The notes beneath the pieces are model-generated. The model saw nothing but the letters and a program-made list of their open reading frames with translations. It did not search any database and had not been told where the DNA came from. From the NCBI GenBank assembly GCA_002788855.1, contig PFSB01000017.1, positions 1 through 35,738 on the forward strand: 35,738 nt of DNA, read 5' to 3'. The position numbers and the translations under genes are program-made. This document shows positions 7,965 to 29,459 of the stretch, piece by piece. Position 1 is the stretch's first letter. The number at the start of each line of letters is the position of its first letter. Origin of the DNA: Candidatus Roizmanbacteria bacterium CG_4_9_14_0_2_um_filter_38_17 (GTDB lineage Bacteria > Patescibacteriota > Microgenomatia > GCA-00278855).

Positions 7965-8336
7965 ATGTCAGCTGTACTTATAGTTGAGGATGATAAATTA
8001 ATTTCTGATCTCTATAAACAGGCATTAACAAAGGCTGGTTTTACTCCTGTTGTAGTTTCACAAGTAGAAGAAGGTTTAGTTGAACTGAAGAAAGGTAAGT
8101 ACGATGTGGTGCTTCTAGATTTGGTACTCCCCGATCAGACTGGCTTTAGTATCCTTGAACAGATCAATAAAGACCCGGAAATATTAACAAAGGTTATTGT
8201 AACAACTAATTTTGGTCAGAGTGAAAATATTGAAAAAGCCTATAAGCTCGGGGCAATCGACGTTCTCTTAAAATACAATATTACAGCAACAGAAGTAGCC
8301 GAAAAAGTAAAGGAATACTTAGCTCAATCTAAATAA
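7965..8336 (+). CDS. Single-domain response regulator (CheY-like receiver)
   Basis: 123 residues, a receiver domain only. The acidic pair D9-D10 (VEDD), the phospho-acceptor D52 (VVLLDLVLP) and the switch Thr80 (VIVTTN) are in place. The conserved lysine is K103, but the usual following proline is tyrosine (LLKYN). There is no output domain and no histidine kinase in the window, so its partner lies elsewhere. The last 13 bp overlap the convergent ATP-grasp gene end. Confidence 0.85.
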   Translation: MSAVLIVEDDKLISDLYKQALTKAGFTPVVVSQVEEGLVELKKGKYDVVLLDLVLPDQTGFSILEQINKDPEILTKVIVTTNFGQSENIEKAYKLGAIDVLLKYNITATEVAEKVKEYLAQSK

Positions 8337-9616
8337 CCCCATTTCTTAAGTAGGGAAAAGTCAGACTCCCAACGATTACCGATGTCATTTCTGTAGTACA
8401 TGTGAGGAATTATGATGTTTTTGACTCGGCTATAAGCTTGCTTTTGTGCCAGCTTCATAGAGCTACCTGATCCAACAACCACAAGAACCGTGCCTTGGGT
8501 TCCGGATACTACCCAATCGTCGCCATCTTTCCTGACATCTTCTATGTGAACACCGGCACTTAACTGGTTCTTGAAGATAACTAGATTGCCTTTAGATAAG
8601 GTTTCAAATGCCATTTTGTCCTGATACGGATACGGAGGAACCACTACTCTTACTCCAACATGAAAGCCTTTTTTAGTTTTTAGTTTAAAATTCTCTCCCT
8701 TTGCCAATTTATATAAGAATTCGCCGGTTGGAGTTTTAAACGTGTCTTGCTGGATCATAATGGTGGGATACCCAAATCGGCAGGTAAACTCTAAGGGATA
8801 AATATTTTTAAGCGTGACAATACAGTTAATGTCAAAATAGCCGACAAATTTTTCTTCTCTTAGTTTTCCAGTAAAGCGCTCAATTGTTGCTTGTGAGAGC
8901 GAATTTGATTCTTTCCAGAACATGCTGGTTCCCATTTCTCCCGTAGTTACGCCAAGATCACCTGGAAACAGCTTCTTGTGTTCAAAAGAGTGATGGAAAG
9001 GCGGGATAAATTTATTACCATTGAAAAATCCACCGATAGCATATTCAACTCCTGAGATTTTTTGCTGCAATTGTAAGTCTGTCAACTTGTTCTTCTTTCT
9101 CTTGCTATAAGAATTTAATATTCTAATCACATCACTTCCATCCTCCATCTGGCCAACGTACAGCATTCTTTTTATTGAAATATTAGACAAGCGTCCCGAT
9201 GGCTTCACAACATATTTTGCCGGGTGACTATTAATATATTCTATTGCAGACTCACATGAACTAAATTCGTGAAATGGCAAGATTTTCACGCCGTGCTTCT
9301 TTAATTCTAGCTGACCAAATTCCCTGTCATCCTCAAGGCGATCTGTATAGGTTGTTCCGCCAACAACCAGCTTGCCTTTTTTTCGTAGCGCTTGTGCAAA
9401 AAAACCAAATCCGCAGGTATCGTCAAAAACTATAATATCTGCCCAGTCTATATGCTCCTTCCAGTCGGTAACTTTTGTTACAAACCCATCGGCAAGATTT
9501 TGCTGGTCCTTGTCTTTTATAAAATACTTAACCTCATGTCCCTCTTTGGATACTTGCCAAGCTAGATCGCCTATGTACGCACCAATTGATACAAATAGAA
9601 ATTTTTTTTTGTTCAT
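8324..9616 (-). CDS. PurD-like ATP-grasp ligase
   Basis: 430 residues with a PurD (phosphoribosylamine-glycine ligase)-like arrangement: an N-terminal Rossmann-type domain (about 1-105), a central ATP-grasp fold (AKYVVKPSGRLSN near 133, then SGVEYAIGGFF), and YPLEFTCRFGYPTIM, which parallels the EFN/TxRFGDPE motif. A C-terminal domain ends in YSRVKNI. No purine genes are adjacent. Its ATG overlaps the stop of the double ATP-grasp gene (ATGA, 9613-9616), so the two are translationally coupled and probably act on the same product. I infer an acid-amine or amino-acid ligase in a peptide-like pathway rather than true PurD. Confidence 0.7.
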   Translation of the reverse strand: MNKKKFLFVSIGAYIGDLAWQVSKEGHEVKYFIKDKDQQNLADGFVTKVTDWKEHIDWADIIVFDDTCGFGFFAQALRKKGKLVVGGTTYTDRLEDDREFGQLELKKHGVKILPFHEFSSCESAIEYINSHPAKYVVKPSGRLSNISIKRMLYVGQMEDGSDVIRILNSYSKRKKNKLTDLQLQQKISGVEYAIGGFFNGNKFIPPFHHSFEHKKLFPGDLGVTTGEMGTSMFWKESNSLSQATIERFTGKLREEKFVGYFDINCIVTLKNIYPLEFTCRFGYPTIMIQQDTFKTPTGEFLYKLAKGENFKLKTKKGFHVGVRVVVPPYPYQDKMAFETLSKGNLVIFKNQLSAGVHIEDVRKDGDDWVVSGTQGTVLVVVGSGSSMKLAQKQAYSRVKNIIIPHMYYRNDIGNRWESDFSLLKKWGYLD

Positions 9617-11970
9617 TCGTTTCGTGGTTTACCCATGGTTACGGCCTGCTTTCTATAATTATTAACAGATTTTTGTAAAATTTGTTCATATAATTTAGCG
9701 TAATCAAACTTAGGTGTCGTGTACTGTATAAAAGGACTTACATTAACGTCTATGAGACTTGGATTTCCATCTTCGTCCAGCCGAAAGTCAAAACGCGCAT
9801 AGTCCCTGCAATCTAGAATGGTAAAGATATCGAATGACAGTTCGATCAATAATTTTTCAAGTTTTGGATTAATGTCCTTTGCCGGGTAGCTACTTTTAAT
9901 ATAATCTGCTATTGTTCCAATGCCACCTAAGCTTAGCTTTGACTTATTTTTCTGAAATACCAGCTTATTTAACGGCAATGCCTCAAGGTCATTATCATCA
10001 TTTCCAATCACAATTACCTCGTATTCGTCCCCTTCTAAAAATTCTTCCACTACAACGGGACAGTTATAATAATGCATCATCTTTTGAATTTGTGGACGTA
10101 ACTTTTCAGGCTTTGTTATAAGTGATTCATTGTTTATGCCAATCTTAAAATCGTGCGTCGCTGGTTTAACTATTAAGGGATAGATGAGCTCTTCTTTTAT
10201 TTCATCTTCTAGCTCAAAAAGATAGTCCCAATCTGGCAGAGGAACATCGTGAAAGTCTAGTAGTTTTCTTATCTGTATTTTGTCCAATAACTGGCGTGCA
10301 ATGAAGCTAGTTGCGCCAGTAAAAGGTATTCCGGAGATCTCAATAGCTTGTAAATTATGGAAGCTAGGCTTAGAATTACCAAGTTCAATATTGATGAGAT
10401 TTATGATGTAGTCATAGTCGAATTGTCTCAGCTTAGTTAAGATAACATAGCTACTTTCGCTAAGGATTTCTTCAATTTTAAACCCTTTTTTAATTAATCC
10501 ATCTTTGACTTTTACATAGTAATTATTATAGTCGCTCTCCTGATACTGATCGATGTTAGTAACTAGGGCAATATCTAATTTTTTAAGCTCAGTTGAAGAA
10601 ACATAATTAACTTTTTCTTTCTGTAATAGATATTTTTTAGCAATACGCGCAGATGACAGGAAATTGTTTTTCTGTGCCTTTCCAGCAAATGACTGGTAGT
10701 CAAACTTTGTAACCTTTAATTGAACTTGCTCTAATGCCTCTTGCAAGTTGTCATTTACATCCAAAGGGTTTTCACCTGAAACTGTAATCCAGCCGATCGT
10801 CTCGACTCCCTCTGGAGGAACTAAGACCGCGTCTCCGAGCTCTTTGTATAGTAGCATGTCTTCAAAATATGGTTTCTTCTTCAATTTAGGATGGATACTA
10901 ACTTCATTTAAGATTCCCGACTGTTCGGTCGAGAAATCCCAACCAATAATATATTTCTTGGGTTTAAGTTCACGCGTTGAATCTATATACTCTCCACAGG
11001 CAACGCTAGCCGCCAGCTTAATCAGGTCAATTCCCCAAACAGCTAGAATATACGAATAGATATAATCTCCCCCCATTCTAAGGTTTATTTCCAGAGGTAC
11101 CGGGCCGGACTTTGAGTATTTGGCTTCAAAATGAATACAGCCATCAGTTATTCCCATCTTTTCTAGGACCTGCTCGGCCATTTCTATCAGTTCTTTCTGA
11201 TGGGTTGGAGGTAGATTTGAGGGGGTTGCCTGTCCCTTATCTAAGAAAAATTTGCCACGACTCTTGTCATAATTATCCGAAACAATAGCAACTTTTACCT
11301 TGCCATTTTGCAAAACCAGATCAATATCCACTTCGTCTCCGTCAATATATTCTTCGGCAAAAATATCAAGTCCGTCGTGTAGAGCTGTTTCGGTTTGAGT
11401 TGAGAGGTTTTTAACCATGTAGCTGTAAAGCATTTCTAGCTCACTTAGGCACTCTACTTTAATTACTAAGGCTGTTAAGGTTCCATAGGCAGGTTTTAGA
11501 ACTATGGGAAACTCTAAATTTTCCTTAATTTTTAGAAGATCTTCTTTGGAGCTAATCTGTAAATGAGCTGGAGTTGGTAGATTATTTGCTTTACAAAATT
11601 CTCGGAAAAAAAGCTTATTTCTGGCTCTGCTTGCTATAGTAAAAGAGCTTCCTTTTAGGCCTAAAGCATCAACGAGCTTCGCGGTAAGTAAAACATCATC
11701 TTCCCAGAAAGTTATTACACCATCTAACTTAATCAGTTTTTTGCGGATAAAAGAAACAGTATCTGAAACTGCCTGGACATGATTGTAGTTATCTGAAATG
11801 ACCCAGTCTGTAACATAATCTTTTGCCCAGTTAACCTCGGAATTAAGACAATAGATTCTATATCCAAGCTCTTTAAGTCTGGCAAAAATAAACTTCTTTT
11901 TGTAATAGCCAGTGTTAACTACAAGGAGGTTTTTAGCAGAGGGGGGTTCGACCTTAGAATCTGTCTTCAT
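9613..11970 (-). CDS. Tandem ATP-grasp ligase (amino-acid ligase-like plus D-Ala-D-Ala ligase-like)
   Basis: 785 residues with two ATP-grasp modules. The N-terminal half (about 1-420) resembles carboxylate-amine/L-amino-acid ligases: FPIVLKPAYGT, FAEEYIDGDEVDIDLVL and PLEINLRMGGDYIYSYI, followed by an LAL-like C-terminal lobe. The C-terminal half (about 470-785) resembles D-alanine-D-alanine ligase: GIPFTGATSF, YPLIVKPATHDFKIGI, VVEEFLEGDEYEV, then YARFDFRLDEDGNPSLIDVNVSPF. Fusion of the two types in one chain is uncommon. It lies between a 104-residue protein upstream (24-nt gap) and the PurD-like ligase downstream (4-bp overlap). This suggests stepwise ligation of two or three amino or carboxylic acids. 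Substrates are unknown. Confidence 0.75.
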   Translation of the reverse strand: MKTDSKVEPPSAKNLLVVNTGYYKKKFIFARLKELGYRIYCLNSEVNWAKDYVTDWVISDNYNHVQAVSDTVSFIRKKLIKLDGVITFWEDDVLLTAKLVDALGLKGSSFTIASRARNKLFFREFCKANNLPTPAHLQISSKEDLLKIKENLEFPIVLKPAYGTLTALVIKVECLSELEMLYSYMVKNLSTQTETALHDGLDIFAEEYIDGDEVDIDLVLQNGKVKVAIVSDNYDKSRGKFFLDKGQATPSNLPPTHQKELIEMAEQVLEKMGITDGCIHFEAKYSKSGPVPLEINLRMGGDYIYSYILAVWGIDLIKLAASVACGEYIDSTRELKPKKYIIGWDFSTEQSGILNEVSIHPKLKKKPYFEDMLLYKELGDAVLVPPEGVETIGWITVSGENPLDVNDNLQEALEQVQLKVTKFDYQSFAGKAQKNNFLSSARIAKKYLLQKEKVNYVSSTELKKLDIALVTNIDQYQESDYNNYYVKVKDGLIKKGFKIEEILSESSYVILTKLRQFDYDYIINLINIELGNSKPSFHNLQAIEISGIPFTGATSFIARQLLDKIQIRKLLDFHDVPLPDWDYLFELEDEIKEELIYPLIVKPATHDFKIGINNESLITKPEKLRPQIQKMMHYYNCPVVVEEFLEGDEYEVIVIGNDDNDLEALPLNKLVFQKNKSKLSLGGIGTIADYIKSSYPAKDINPKLEKLLIELSFDIFTILDCRDYARFDFRLDEDGNPSLIDVNVSPFIQYTTPKFDYAKLYEQILQKSVNNYRKQAVTMGKPRNE

Positions 11971-11994
11971 GTATGTGTATACATCTATTATTAC

Positions 11995-12309
11995 CTAAAT
12001 TTTAGCCTTGTCAATAATTTGCTTCTTCTCAAATCCCCCGAGGTCTTTTATTTTCCACATGAAGAGTCTGCCTTTGTTTTTAATTTTTCCCTGGTCTTGG
12101 ATTTTGACGAACGAGAGAGCTTTTTCAAGGATGGCCCGAGGATGTTTTTTAGCTAATTTAATATAAAGTGCTTTATGCATCTGGTCGTCTAGCTGCTCAG
12201 TAAGGTAGATACCATAGTTTTGAAATTCGCGTGAGATGTACTTATCCTCCACGGGATTAAAAAGCTTTAATATTTCACCGATAGTGCTGATATTATTTTT
12301 TGATGGCAT
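11995..12309 (-). CDS. Conserved-looking hypothetical protein, first gene of the ATP-grasp operon
   Basis: 104 residues, basic and helical, no hydrophobic segment. The stretches YISREFQNYGIYLTEQL and LFMWKIKDLGGF recall a small protein common in CPR genomes (from memory), with no function known to me. It ends 24 nt before the tandem ATP-grasp gene. A TATAAT lies about 15 nt before the ATG, giving a leader of about 8 nt. Confidence 0.6.
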   Translation of the reverse strand: MPSKNNISTIGEILKLFNPVEDKYISREFQNYGIYLTEQLDDQMHKALYIKLAKKHPRAILEKALSFVKIQDQGKIKNKGRLFMWKIKDLGGFEKKQIIDKAKI

Positions 12310-12403: not shown

Positions 12404-12664
12404 ATGACTGTTCAACAACAATTAACCTTTCACAAAATTTCTGCAAAAGGGCAAATTGTTATCCCGTCCTTGATACGAAAAAAATTCGGCTGGGAATCTG
12501 GAATGAAAGCCTTTGTTAAATCAGCCCATCCTACTGAAGTTGTGTTTTCAATTAAACCGGCTGTCCCTAATCTTGGGTACAAGTACAAAGGTTCGCTTAA
12601 AGATGAGCTTCCTTCTCTAAAACTTTATCTGAAAGATAAAAAAGTGGATATAGCAAAAGAATGA
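12404..12664 (+). CDS. AbrB/MazE-type antitoxin
   Basis: 86 residues. FHKISAKGQIVIPSLIRKKFGWESGMKAFV is the swapped-hairpin AbrB/SpoVT DNA-binding signature; the basic and acidic C-terminal half would contact the toxin. Leaderless start (-10 box ends 7 nt upstream). Its TGA overlaps the toxin ATG (ATGA, 12661-12664). Confidence 0.8.
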   Translation: MTVQQQLTFHKISAKGQIVIPSLIRKKFGWESGMKAFVKSAHPTEVVFSIKPAVPNLGYKYKGSLKDELPSLKLYLKDKKVDIAKE

Positions 12665-13083
12665 TAAAATTAAACTACGTTCTTGATTCTTACTCGCTTA
12701 TAGCTTTTTTTCAGAATGAGAAAGGTGCAAACACAGTGGCTGACCTTATTACAGAAGCGCAAAACGGGGATCTCATTTTGTTTTTACATTCGGTTAATTG
12801 GGGTGAAATTTATTATACTGCTTACAGAGAAAAAGGAGTTACTGCCGCACAAAAGGTTGCTGATACGATCAGAAAGTTACCGATTTTGGTTATTGAAGAC
12901 GCTTCGCTTAATTTTATATCCGGTGTGGCAACAATTAAAGGTAAGTATTCCCTAGCATATGCTGATGCCTTTGCAATCTGGTTAGGCTTAAGCAAAAATG
13001 CGTTTCTTGTTACAGGCGATCCAGAAATTATAAAAGTATCCAAAAAAGAAAACAAGCTTAAAGTTATAAATATAAGAGAATGA
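12661..13083 (+). CDS. vapC: PIN-domain toxin (VapC family)
   Basis: 140 residues. Acidic PIN positions are D9 (YVLDSYSLIAFF), the Glu in NWGEIYYTAYREKG, the Asp in LAYADAFAIWLG and the Asp in LVTGDPEI. Translation is coupled to the antitoxin by a 4-bp overlap. It is convergent with pth, whose stop is 5 bp away. Confidence 0.85.
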   Translation: MIKLNYVLDSYSLIAFFQNEKGANTVADLITEAQNGDLILFLHSVNWGEIYYTAYREKGVTAAQKVADTIRKLPILVIEDASLNFISGVATIKGKYSLAYADAFAIWLGLSKNAFLVTGDPEIIKVSKKENKLKVINIRE

Positions 13084-20256: not shown

Positions 20257-20265
20257 ATGTTTACT

Positions 20266-20523
20266 ATGAATTTGAAGACTGTTACTGATCTTAGAGAGAA
20301 AACCATGATGATGCTTAAGCAAGCGCAAAAAGCTGTCGAACCTATGTATATCCTGCATCACTCTAAACCCCAAGCAGTATTATTGGGAATTGACGCTTAT
20401 AGCAAGCTTCGTGATTTGGCTGAAGACTCGATTGACGCGCAGTCTGCTCAGGAATTTGAAAAGGAGAATAAAGCTAGAGTTCCTTGGATATCACACGACA
20501 AGCTTATAAAAGAGTTGGCTTAA
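20266..20523 (+). CDS. Phd/YefM family antitoxin
   Basis: 85 residues. MNLKTVTDLREKTMMMLKQAQKAVEPMYILHHSKPQAVLLGIDAY is the standard Phd/YefM domain: a DNA-binding N-terminus, then the SKPQAVLL strand. The acidic C-terminal part ends in a helix that would bind the toxin. The start is set by the promoter. The toxin gene starts 7 nt downstream. Confidence 0.85.
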   Translation: MNLKTVTDLREKTMMMLKQAQKAVEPMYILHHSKPQAVLLGIDAYSKLRDLAEDSIDAQSAQEFEKENKARVPWISHDKLIKELA

Positions 20524-20530
20524 ATATAAT

Positions 20531-20794
20531 ATGGACTCCTTTACTCTGCTCTATCACCCACGTGCAGTAAAAAATCTAAGACGAATTCATCCCACTGATC
20601 AAAAGAAAATCATAAAGAAACTGGAGATATTAGCAAAAGAACCAACTTCAATTAGCTTAAATGTTAAGAAGCTTATAAATACTGGTCAAAGTTATAGATT
20701 AAGAATGGGTAATCTTCGAGTTAATTATGAAATGAATAAGGGTAAGCGAAAAATCTATGTCTGGAATATAGACTACCGCGGGAATATTTATTAA
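20531..20794 (+). CDS. RelE/ParE superfamily toxin
   Basis: 87 residues. FTLLYHPRAVKNLRRIHPTDQKKIIKKLEIL, then SYRLRMGNLRVNYEMNKGKRKIYVWNIDYRGNIY: the R-x-R/x-G-x-x-R...I-x-x-R-G-x-x-Y pattern is typical of RelE-like ribosome-dependent mRNA interferases. It could also be ParE-like, since the fold is shared. A perfect hairpin follows one base after the stop. Confidence 0.85.
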   Translation: MDSFTLLYHPRAVKNLRRIHPTDQKKIIKKLEILAKEPTSISLNVKKLINTGQSYRLRMGNLRVNYEMNKGKRKIYVWNIDYRGNIY

Positions 20795-25703: not shown

Positions 25704-26552
25704 TTAATCAGCTTGGAAATATTCCTTATCCAGATCCAGAAATACACCAAACTCCGAAGGGGGCAGGTAATAAAGATAGGGAGAGCTATTTAGTTTTACC
25801 AGGCGCTCATTACCCTCTTCTTGGCCAATTACTAGAGCGTCTTCACCTTCTACGCCTTTAACAGTTATTGTTACAGCTGGTATGCCTAGCTCCCCAGAAG
25901 TTGTGGCATCTTCAGCTCTCATAAATTGGAGGCGGTGGGCAAGATCAGCTACACGTGTTTCAATTACTTTCTCAAGCTGGGGCTGCATAAGAATCCAGCT
26001 ATCATCTTTTTGTTCAAATACAAACTCACCGCTATTGTTCTGAATGGTAATCTGGTTAATGGAAGTTGGAAAGTTAAGAGCTAAATCTCTCCATTCAGAG
26101 TCTTTAGCAGTTGGCTCAAAACTGGTATCTGACAGATACACCTGGTCGGAATCCGCCAGACGAAAGTAGTTACTTGCAGCAAACCCAAGCCCTGAGTTGC
26201 CAATTATGATAGTTTGCTCACCAATTTTAAGAACCACGCCGTTTTCCCCCACCCCGTATTGATCGTGGTTATCTGGATTGGTAGAGACAAGATTATCCGT
26301 TGTAAGAGAAGCTAGATTAGTTAAGAGCTCTTCTATTTTATTTTGATCAGCTGGGAAGTTGTCAGACGATGCTACAACCCAAATATCTTTTATTTTAGCT
26401 AAGTGGATTTGAGAAATGGTTATTTCAGTTACTCCCGCCGTATCGATCAATTGAGATTTACTTAAAAAACTAAAAAAGTTAGGATTGCGAAGGAAAATAG
26501 CAGTTGTGAGTAATAAAACAAAGACCAACAGGGTTAAACCTTTTAAGTTCAT
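25704..26552 (-). CDS. DUF4340 domain protein, last gene of the Gld-type ABC operon
   Basis: 282 residues. One N-terminal membrane helix (LTLLVFVLLLTTAIFL), then an extracytoplasmic region with two similar repeats: DIWVVASSDNFPADQNKIEELLTNLASL and DSWILMQPQLEKVIETRVADLAHRLQ. Each is followed by a V/L-x-x-G-x-x-x-I/V pair (LKIGEQTIIIGN, VIGQEEGNERLVKL). This is the standard DUF4340 pattern. It lies 5 nt after the gldG-like gene and is a frequent partner of that operon. It probably works with GldG outside the membrane. Confidence 0.8.
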   Translation of the reverse strand: MNLKGLTLLVFVLLLTTAIFLRNPNFFSFLSKSQLIDTAGVTEITISQIHLAKIKDIWVVASSDNFPADQNKIEELLTNLASLTTDNLVSTNPDNHDQYGVGENGVVLKIGEQTIIIGNSGLGFAASNYFRLADSDQVYLSDTSFEPTAKDSEWRDLALNFPTSINQITIQNNSGEFVFEQKDDSWILMQPQLEKVIETRVADLAHRLQFMRAEDATTSGELGIPAVTITVKGVEGEDALVIGQEEGNERLVKLNSSPYLYYLPPSEFGVFLDLDKEYFQAD

Positions 26553-26557
26553 TATTT

Positions 26558-28039
26558 TTATTTTCGCTTATTAATCCGGATGAAGCCAAGTATGAGCGCT
26601 AGGACGGGAACTACAGCTATGAGTCCATATTTAACTGTGTCGCGCATGGAGTCAGATAATACCGTTAGTGGACGATAACTTATTCCTCGAGCACGAATGG
26701 ATGAGAGGGCGGCATCGGAACTTAACCAATCCACTAGGTTAACAAAAAAGACAGCGTTAGCTTGCTCTCGCTGGAACCCTGCATCAGAGATAAAATCGCT
26801 ATCTCCAACTAACGCTACTTTGCCCCCTGTAGATGTTTGGGTTGCCGCGGCAACTACCTTACCCTTTGTCTCTATGTCCAGACTAAAATCCTGACTGGGG
26901 TCGAGGTTGAAATTCTCGTTCATTGTGTAGCTTTGCGGCACAGTTTGCATTAAGATAAAGGGCTGTTCTTTAGATTTATTTAAGGACGGTCCTTGAATAG
27001 AAATGCTGCTTGCCCAAGGGAACATTGCTGTTTCAAGCTGGGATAAAGCAGGAATATCCTTATTCACCCCTGCTGGCTGAATTCTGATCCAGAAAGGATA
27101 GGGTGTTAGAAAAATATTAGTTGCCGTACGGAAATTTGCTATCTCATTGGAAGCAGATACAACTAGATCGCTATTTAAGCTTAGACCCAGCGCGCTAAAA
27201 GTATCGTTAAGATTATGATCTACAGGAAAGGCCTGTAAATTTTCGGTAACCTCAACCCCCTCAACAGCTAGAAGCACAGATTTTCCACTGTTAACAAAGT
27301 CTCGTAAGATTTGTTTTTCCTGCTCTTGCCAAACTTGGGTACTACCGACTACTACGAGAGTACTAACGTTATCTGAGATAGCTATGTTTTCTCCTTCTGT
27401 GGCTACCAAAACCTGAGTGGTTACATTAAAGTCACGGGATAATAACTGGTTGGCTATAGCTATCTGCTCTACTTCACCGTGTCCTGTTGTGAAGGCAACT
27501 GTGGGAATATTGTTGCTGGTTAAGCGTTTAATTGAGGAGATTAAGAGATACTCATAGTTTGCTCCCTCTTCAAATACGGGGATTGTTTCAGATTTACCTC
27601 CGTATTCAATAACTCCGCCAAAATATCCTTGTTGAACCTGGAGTTTTTCTCTTTCAAAGCCAGAAAACTGTAGCTTAGGGATGCCCAGACTCGCCGCCTC
27701 TTGCTCTTTATCTGGTGCATCAGGAACAACTGTTTGAACCTGGATTTTGCCAGAGCTAACGCGTTCAAACTCCGCCAATACACTGTCCAATTCTTGTTTA
27801 ATTGGCAACACCTGATTAGGAAGTTGGGTCGAAATATATAACTTAATAGTTACAATGTCATCAGTATTATTTAAGATATCTTTAGTTACAGGAGCCAGTG
27901 AAAAGCGCTGATCTTGGGTGAGATCAAGGCGCAATGGGAAGAAAGAGACAATGTAGTTTAAAAGTATAAGAATTCCTAAGGTTGCTATAACTAAGCCTTT
28001 GTTACTAAGAGTACTCATGAATGCTTTAATTTTTTTCAT
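26558..28039 (-). CDS. GldG-like ABC-associated extracytoplasmic protein
   Basis: 493 residues. An N-terminal helix (GLVIATLGILILLNYIVSFF) is followed by the GldG signature RLDLTQDQRFSLAPVTKDILNNTDDIVTIKLYIS. A large domain has FTTGHGE and late LVGDSDFISDAGF segments, and a C-terminal helix lies near the end (YGLIAVVPVLALILGFI). ATG 28039 is preferred over an upstream TTG inside the permease gene. It sits between the ABC permease and the DUF4340 gene and should form the periplasmic-side partner of the transporter. Confidence 0.8.
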   Translation of the reverse strand: MKKIKAFMSTLSNKGLVIATLGILILLNYIVSFFPLRLDLTQDQRFSLAPVTKDILNNTDDIVTIKLYISTQLPNQVLPIKQELDSVLAEFERVSSGKIQVQTVVPDAPDKEQEAASLGIPKLQFSGFEREKLQVQQGYFGGVIEYGGKSETIPVFEEGANYEYLLISSIKRLTSNNIPTVAFTTGHGEVEQIAIANQLLSRDFNVTTQVLVATEGENIAISDNVSTLVVVGSTQVWQEQEKQILRDFVNSGKSVLLAVEGVEVTENLQAFPVDHNLNDTFSALGLSLNSDLVVSASNEIANFRTATNIFLTPYPFWIRIQPAGVNKDIPALSQLETAMFPWASSISIQGPSLNKSKEQPFILMQTVPQSYTMNENFNLDPSQDFSLDIETKGKVVAAATQTSTGGKVALVGDSDFISDAGFQREQANAVFFVNLVDWLSSDAALSSIRARGISYRPLTVLSDSMRDTVKYGLIAVVPVLALILGFIRINKRK

Positions 28040-28043
28040 ATTA

Positions 28044-28754
28044 CTAGCGATTACGCTTGAGCTGCTCAATGCTTAAGTATAAGAATGCTACGATTACCGA
28101 TATAAAATATGTGACGTCTTTTAGATCAATGACCCCTTGAGCCATATTCTGATAACGAGCCATAGGGCTTATGAAGAAAAATATGCTGCGTAAAAAGCGA
28201 GGAAATTGGTCCGTTATGAGTGGACTACCAATAATCATCACCAAGAAAAAGACAATAATACTTACAAATACAGCCGATAAAGTATTTTTGGAAGTAGTAG
28301 AGATAAACATCCCAATCGCAACAAGTGTTTGGGCAAAAAGAAAAGCTGCCAGTAAACTTGCCACAATGACACCAGGGTCTGGTCTACCTAACATAAACAC
28401 AGCAATGATTGTAGGAAGCAAGCTAAGCACAGTTAAGCCTGAGAGTATTTTTAACCCCACAAACTTACCTAGTACAATTTCTTGCAGTTTGAGAGGTAGC
28501 GTCATAAGTACTTCAAATGTTCCAGATTTTTTCTCTTCGGCAAAACTACGAGCTGAGATTACCGCAACCATCACTAAAAGCAACCAAGGCAGGATCGAGA
28601 AAATTGGGATCAAATCTGCTTGATCACGGATCAGAATATCGCGGATTGCCAGAAAGTTTACAAGGGCACCAAATATCCCTAATATAATAAAACCCGTAGG
28701 TGTGTTGAAATAAAAGGATAATTCTTTTTTGGCAATAGTTTTAATATTTTTCAT
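28044..28754 (-). CDS. ABC-2 type permease (GldF-like)
   Basis: 236 residues, six predicted membrane helices. The N-terminal MKNIKTIAKKELSFYFNTPTGFIILGIF and ARSFAEEKKSGTFEVLMTLPL are typical of ABC-2/GldF-type permeases. Its ATG overlaps the ATPase stop (28751-28754), and the gldG-like gene starts 4 nt after its stop. The substrate is unknown; in Bacteroidetes GldA/F/G is linked to gliding motility, but the same operon type is widespread in non-gliders. Confidence 0.85.
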   Translation of the reverse strand: MKNIKTIAKKELSFYFNTPTGFIILGIFGALVNFLAIRDILIRDQADLIPIFSILPWLLLVMVAVISARSFAEEKKSGTFEVLMTLPLKLQEIVLGKFVGLKILSGLTVLSLLPTIIAVFMLGRPDPGVIVASLLAAFLFAQTLVAIGMFISTTSKNTLSAVFVSIIVFFLVMIIGSPLITDQFPRFLRSIFFFISPMARYQNMAQGVIDLKDVTYFISVIVAFLYLSIEQLKRNR

Positions 28755-29434
28755 TTCATTGTCACGTCGTGGAATATTTTTTCAAGTTTACCTTTTCTTT
28801 TTGGAACTTTATCGTCATAAACAATAGAGCCTTTATTTATAATAATCACTCTTGAACACATCGCCTCAACCTCTTGTAAGATATGCGTGGAGAGAATAAC
28901 GGTCTTTTTCTTACCCAACTCTTTGATTAATCCCCTTATTTCTACCACCTGATTAGGGTCAAGACCAGAAGTGGGTTCATCAAGAATTAATATCTCTGGA
29001 TTTCCTATGATGGAAGCGGCCAGTCCTACTCTTTGTTTATATCCTCGGGAAAGATTTTCTATCTTATGTTTAAGTTTTTCTTCTACACCGCAAACTTTTA
29101 TTATGTTTTTGGTATTTGGGGAACTGGTTTTTGTTGATGCTATAAATCTAAGATATTCCTCCACAGTCATTTCGCTATACAGAGGGTTATTTTCTGGCAG
29201 GTAGCCAATGAGCTTGGCAGCTTTAACGCGGTCTTTATCTGGATTTACAGTGCCCACAGACACCTCTCCTGAGGAAGGGCGGGCAAATCCGGTGAGCATG
29301 CGCATAGTGGTTGTTTTACCTGCGCCATTGGGACCCAAGAACCCGACCACCTCTCCTTTACCTATACTGAAAGATACATTGTCTACAGCGGTAACTTGAC
29401 CAAATTGTTTAGACACATTCTTAAGTTTGATCAT
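28751..29434 (-). CDS. ABC transporter ATPase (GldA-like)
   Basis: 227 residues. Walker A GPNGAGKTTT, Q-loop YLPENNPLY, signature LSRGYKQR, Walker B ILILDEP and switch STHIL are all present. ATG 29434 is chosen over GTG 29440 because the extended -10 (TG-C-TATAAT, 29451-29443) places the transcript start between them. It energises the permease encoded next. Confidence 0.9.
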   Translation of the reverse strand: MIKLKNVSKQFGQVTAVDNVSFSIGKGEVVGFLGPNGAGKTTTMRMLTGFARPSSGEVSVGTVNPDKDRVKAAKLIGYLPENNPLYSEMTVEEYLRFIASTKTSSPNTKNIIKVCGVEEKLKHKIENLSRGYKQRVGLAASIIGNPEILILDEPTSGLDPNQVVEIRGLIKELGKKKTVILSTHILQEVEAMCSRVIIINKGSIVYDDKVPKRKGKLEKIFHDVTMK

Positions 29435-29459
29435 GGTCACTTATTATAGCACTCATTTT

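Follow-up and report, generated by a model that had tools for sequence, protein, structure and literature searches.

The ligase genes and their genome

The window, that is, the whole stretch of DNA that we analysed (35,738 nt), carries the gene for a fused double ATP-grasp ligase of 785 aa, here called DIG (9613..11970), and the gene for a 430-aa PurD-like ATP-grasp protein (8324..9616). Both lie on the reverse strand, as do all features of this locus given below. A sequence check found these two reading frames, and that of a 104-aa protein, open and intact where an earlier note on this DNA had placed them. The reverse complement of positions 9613-9616 reads ATGA, and the 4-bp stop/start overlap between DIG and the PurD-like gene is therefore real. 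The 104-aa gene (11995..12309) lies just upstream of DIG on the same strand, as the earlier note had said, but it is not a conserved neighbour of DIG. Its product matched no family in Pfam or NCBIfam, and no homologue was found at any DIG locus fetched, which excluded it as a component of the system. No epimerase, transporter or carrier that could act as a partner is encoded at the window locus. Elsewhere in the window we observed a gliding-type ABC transporter set at 25704-29440 (a GldG-like protein, 2.6e-37, with ABC-2 permease and ABC ATPase ORFs) and three small gene pairs that look like toxin-antitoxin pairs by inspection (12404-13083, 2220-2874 and 20257-20794).

The N-terminal half of DIG (residues ~14-422; 10705..11931) is an L-amino-acid-ligase-like (LAL) ATP-grasp with a LAL_C2-type C-terminal subdomain. 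In Pfam, residues ~15-420 match ATP-grasp_4 (1e-21), and LAL_C2 (PF18603) scores 30.6 bits, above its curated cut-off of 29.4. The C-terminal half (residues ~466-772; 9655..10575) is a Ddl-like ATP-grasp, in which residues 586-746 match Dala_Dala_lig_C (PF07478, 3e-25). The PDB sequence relatives are the L-amino acid ligase BL00235 (3vot, 1e-23) and Ddl enzymes (from 5e-12). The AF2 model of DIG has a pLDDT of 81.6 and a pTM of 0.58, and a Foldseek search with it aligned the LAL half to 3vot at a TM of 0.85. The NCBIfam scores of DIG are throughout far under the equivalog cut-offs; its Ddl half reaches 125 bits against 243 for PRK01372, and 97 against 245.65 for D_ala_D_alaTIGR.

We compared the catalytic residues of the two halves. 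All of K119, K159, E206/E207, E213, E282, E294, N296 and R298 are kept in the LAL half, and the corresponding two lysines, hinge glutamate and ExN motif are near-invariant over 43 homologues. In the Ddl half, K564, K602, E642/E643, E649, R726, D728, D732 and N743 are present, and the family's E741 is replaced by D, a conservative substitution and the sole ATP/Mg residue change across both halves. Thus, the loss of ATP/Mg-binding residues, which the earlier note had named as a ground for refutation, was not seen. Read from the sequences, the window DIG lacks the N-terminal GGxSxE motif of Ddl (E15 in DdlB) and the omega-loop Lys-Tyr. The loop in the Ddl omega-loop region is shortened (about residues 676-692; 9895..9945), where the family consensus reads WHIY...AKW; one relative, L043, likewise lacks this loop and still keeps its ATP/Mg residues. 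Overall, the window DIG retains 75% of the conserved positions in the Ddl half versus 91% in the LAL half.

The PurD-like protein matches GARS_A (2e-13) and GARS_C (5e-9) in Pfam, and its PDB sequence relatives are GAR synthetases (1e-18). Its AF2 model (pLDDT 88.9, pTM 0.88) aligned to GAR synthetases at TM 0.73-0.79 in Foldseek. Structure prediction, proposed earlier as a check, thus supported both the LAL half and this protein. It scores 114.9 bits on TIGR00877, below the cut-off of 288; the genuine PurD of the same genome scores 509.9 bits. The GREHAL and VGPE motifs are absent from the PurD-like family, and the Asn of the ExN metal site is Thr in 18 of 18 members. The genuine PurD sits in a purine operon of the same genome, which rules out the PurD-like protein as the genome's purine enzyme. 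It is therefore a diverged paralogue of the genuine PurD and a separate CPR family, found in 14 of the 380 genomes of the phylum sample. A phage origin was considered and rejected, the matches being distant only (<=29% identity). One PurD-like locus of this family, L155, lies near ornithine/DAP-type decarboxylase and dehydrogenase ORFs, polyamine-pathway-like by inspection.

Taken together, the ORFs, the overlap, Pfam, the PDB relatives and AF2 agree with the earlier description of an LAL-like and Ddl-like fusion coupled through ATGA to a PurD-like ligase. The statement that purine and peptidoglycan genes are not nearby is true of the window, and both sets are present elsewhere in the genome. 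A Pyr/Pur cluster on contig C13 (locus L205) indicates that nucleotides are made de novo, which is not usual in a CPR genome of this size (1.09 Mb). Here the genuine PurD adjoins PurF (both by models), and PurN-, PurL-, PurQ-, PurK- and PurE-like ORFs as well as PyrC, PyrF, PyrE and PyrG were recognised by inspection. Contig C6 (L201 and L202) carries a dcw/peptidoglycan cluster with Mur ligases, MraY, MurG, an FtsW-like and a FemAB-like ORF (by inspection), and five Mur-ligase-type proteins are encoded in and near it. With de novo genes for both purines and pyrimidines besides the dcw/peptidoglycan cluster, the genome departs from the little biosynthesis that had been expected of it. On another contig (C28, L111:8887-11089) a 111-aa C-terminal Ddl-like fragment, a 444-aa ATP-grasp weakly similar to BesA and a 171-aa C39-like (bacteriocin-exporter-type) peptidase stand in a row.

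The DIG family and its neighbours in relatives

A scan of genome contigs recovered about 55 full-length DIG homologues with 30-44% identity. Their hosts are mainly CPR (Magasanik-, Roizman-, Falkow-, Uhr-, Jackson-, Peregrini-, Wirth- and Pacebacteria, among others), together with a few MAGs labelled Woesearchaeota, Bathyarchaeota and Elusimicrobia. Within the class of the window genome, DIG is present in 11 of 280 genomes. On the strength of this sequence conservation, DIG is a genuine, conserved and uncharacterised CPR family. The ATP/Mg positions hardly vary in the LAL half throughout the family. The same holds for the Ddl half of most members; L064, L037 and L077 have lost catalytic residues there. 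On the DIG tree, which was built quickly with SH-aLRT support, the terminal branch leading to the window protein measures 1.85, against a median of 0.35, and the placement of this long branch is unsure. Two DIG genes share one locus (L022:8001-15897), where a MurL-like gene, a SET protein gene and an ORF of 309 aa accompany them.

We clustered the ORFs flanking DIG loci into neighbour families. A MurL-like gene lies near DIG in 11-12 relative loci, with spacings of -11 to 24 nt in several of them, and 9 of the 11 members of this family match NCBIfam MurL, at weak values (best 1e-11). MurL itself epimerises the terminal L-Glu of a peptide in a reaction that depends on ATP and Mg and yields AMP (PMC5808125). 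Dipeptide-epimerase-like enolases occur in six DIG loci (2.5e-59 to L-Ala-D/L-Glu epimerase). FemAB-like GNAT proteins, all 13 of whose searched members match Acetyltransf_6 and three FemAB_like, occur in about 16 loci, and many of these genes are spaced -4 to 6 nt from DIG. A fold-III PLP decarboxylase, a SET protein and additional single ATP-grasps also recur, as does a protein without a family match that looks aminotransferase-like by inspection. Neither this last family nor the MurL-like one gave a match when its profile was searched against the PDB. The gaps between DIG and its neighbours are often of a few bases or overlaps, and the fullest operons are those of L045 and L038; many DIG genes have no peptide-type neighbour.

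The presence of these neighbours changes repeatedly along the DIG tree: 11 times for the MurL-like gene, 9 for the FemAB-like gene, 6 for the dipeptide epimerase, 5 for the PLP decarboxylase and 3 for the PurD-like gene, counts that do not separate gain from loss. This indicates that the associations are not one inherited block. MurL-like and DIG genes co-occur in 4 of the 11 DIG genomes versus 1.0 expected (Fisher p = 0.012); the window genome has no MurL-like gene of the DIG type. Among 16 MurL-like loci without DIG that we examined, seven (L181, L182, L183, L187, L192, L199 and L200, all from genomes without DIG) have one or two genes for single Ddl-like ATP-grasps next to the MurL-like gene. 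Here the pairing of ligase and epimerase takes a second form, with separate genes, and it ties the ligase type to the epimerase independently of DIG.

The PurD-like gene adjoins DIG in three loci only (the window, L028 and L080), which are scattered on the DIG tree as three separate lineages. The three adjacencies are far more than the roughly 0.004 expected by chance, an order-of-magnitude guide that assumes randomly placed genes, some 1000 of them in each genome, with DIG loci that are not independent. DIG occurs in 1 of the 15 other genomes with a PurD-like gene, and there it is not adjacent. The gene order of the window was thus not recovered as a constant arrangement in other CPR genomes, and co-occurrence of all three genes, whose failure had been proposed as a refutation, fails in most relatives. 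The gene content of relatives therefore rules out the three ligases as one conserved unit. The earlier idea of a single coupled, peptide-type ligase pathway stands in part: the ATP/Mg residues are intact and the relatives' DIG genes are operonic with peptide epimerases and FemAB-like transferases, but the fixed three-ligase set fails.

A proposed peptide or amide ligase and its alternatives

LAL and Ddl enzymes form acyl phosphates, which are then attacked by an amine. We propose that DIG, with the PurD-like protein as an optional partner, is a bifunctional amide ligase making a short peptide or amino-acid amide that probably contains D-residues, and consider the chances of this reading about even. 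It is favoured by the closeness of the LAL half to L-amino acid ligases, by the retained ATP/Mg residues and by the recurring epimerase, FemAB-like and PurD-like neighbours. Against it count the lack of partner genes at the window locus, the diverged Ddl half of the window copy, the catalytic residues lost in three relatives, the many DIG genes with no peptide-type neighbour, the low NCBIfam scores and the weak MurL matches. In such a scheme, the LAL-like half would convert the carboxylate of one amino acid to an acyl phosphate and link it with a second amino acid. The terminal residue would be inverted by the MurL-like or enolase-type dipeptide epimerase encoded alongside in many relatives. 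The Ddl-like half would then form a further carboxylate-amine bond, in many relatives possibly after inversion and from a D-carboxylate, and the PurD-like ligase could add another amine or carboxylate unit. Since the window locus has no epimerase and its genome no MurL-like gene of the DIG type, the product of the window copy may be all-L, or scavenged D-amino acids may be used. Of this scheme, the gene associations are what was observed, and we infer the amino-acid substrates, the order of steps, the stereochemistry and a shared role for the window copy.

A cell-wall role would make the Ddl-like half a dipeptide ligase that supplies D-Ala-D-Ala, or a substitute dipeptide, to be added by MurF. 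The dcw cluster and the five Mur-ligase-type proteins are consistent with this, as are the lack of a match to alanine racemase (Alr, TIGR00492) and the lack of a stand-alone Ddl over threshold in the window genome, whose one PF07478 match at E<=1e-10 is taken to be DIG itself. A single PF07478 match is also seen in the DIG genomes G008, G029, G110, G162 and G261. However, the excess of DIG genomes without another Ddl is weak (6/11 vs 83/269, p = 0.10) and reaches p = 0.006 only when two unclear genomes are counted, and a strong Ddl coexists with DIG in G073 and G105, although the DIG match of G105 spans the LAL half only. The missing GGxSxE, the shortened omega-loop of the window copy and its shortfall on PRK01372 also argue against a wall enzyme, the Ddl half appears to be inactivated by residue loss in some relatives, and a wall dipeptide needs no LAL half. 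We regard this role as quite unlikely. It is similarly improbable that the window DIG is drifting or neofunctionalised, with a non-catalytic Ddl half and the LAL and PurD-like activities remaining. The long branch and the lower retention of conserved positions do suggest that its Ddl half may have changed or be losing activity, and the loop deletion and E741D point the same way. But the frame is open over all 785 codons, K564, K602, E642, E643, E649, D728, D732 and N743 are retained, and the relative without the loop keeps its residues too.

DIG and the PurD-like protein could instead attach amino acids as tags to a protein, a polyamine or a cofactor, with no free peptide made. The SET-domain and FemAB-like transferase neighbours of DIG would fit such a role, as would the polyamine-pathway-like genes at L155 and the usual occurrence of the PurD-like gene without DIG. 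The LAL fold, however, is typical of enzymes working on free amino acids, the epimerase and dipeptide-epimerase neighbours point to small peptides, and the polyamine link was observed once; we consider tagging unlikely.

Within the reading of DIG as a peptide or amide ligase, we tentatively suggest a more specific form, which is possible rather than probable. CPR bacteria may make a free peptide resembling a peptidoglycan stem outside the Mur pathway, starting with two L-amino acids linked by the LAL half. An adenylating epimerase of the MurL type would then invert the terminal residue, the Ddl-like half would extend the peptide from the resulting D-carboxylate, and optional decarboxylase, FemAB-like, SET or PurD-like proteins would tailor the product. 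The window would be an epimerase-less, PurD-like-bearing variant. If true, CPR bacteria would have a class of small-peptide pathway that recurs in mix-and-match form and that we did not find in the literature searched. That search, of open-licence papers only, where absence is not proof, gave no relevant paper joining CPR or Patescibacteria with MurL, tandem ATP-grasp, or Ddl and ATP-grasp. It is often said that CPR bacteria lack biosynthetic capacity. A ligase and epimerase operon recurring across many CPR lineages suggests that they make small peptides or amides of their own, possibly for host interaction or the cell wall. DIG and its partners form a concrete, expressible enzyme set for direct tests of this chemistry.

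Comparison with known systems

The PurD-like protein shares with GAR synthetase the full-length fold (TM ~0.75), the ATP-grasp core and a conserved HK....G..G...xMG segment. It differs in its score (115 bits vs 288), the loss of GREHAL and VGPE, the change from ExN to ExT in 18 of 18 members and the presence of a genuine PurD in the same genome. Similarly, the C-terminal half of DIG has the ATP-grasp core of Ddl, with R726/D728 and the D741/N743 metal site in Ddl-like positions, whereas the N-terminal GGxSxE is absent, the omega-loop of the window copy is shortened, the scores are well under the Ddl cut-offs and an LAL half is fused to it.

The alternative D-Glu route of Xanthomonas, MurL/MurD2, resembles the relatives' loci in placing a MurL-like ATP-dependent epimerase beside an amide ligase. 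However, the partner in DIG loci is an ATP-grasp double ligase and not MurD2, no UDP-MurNAc enzyme was seen in the relatives' DIG operons, and the window genome lacks the MurL-like gene. The L-amino acid ligases BL00235, BacD/YwfE and RizA differ from DIG, which is fused to a Ddl-like ligase, has 23-24% identity to 3vot and falls under the NCBIfam cut-offs. They share with it the ATP-grasp fold, the LAL_C2-type subdomain and the catalytic residues, and DIG would be expected, like them, to form peptide bonds by a non-NRPS route.
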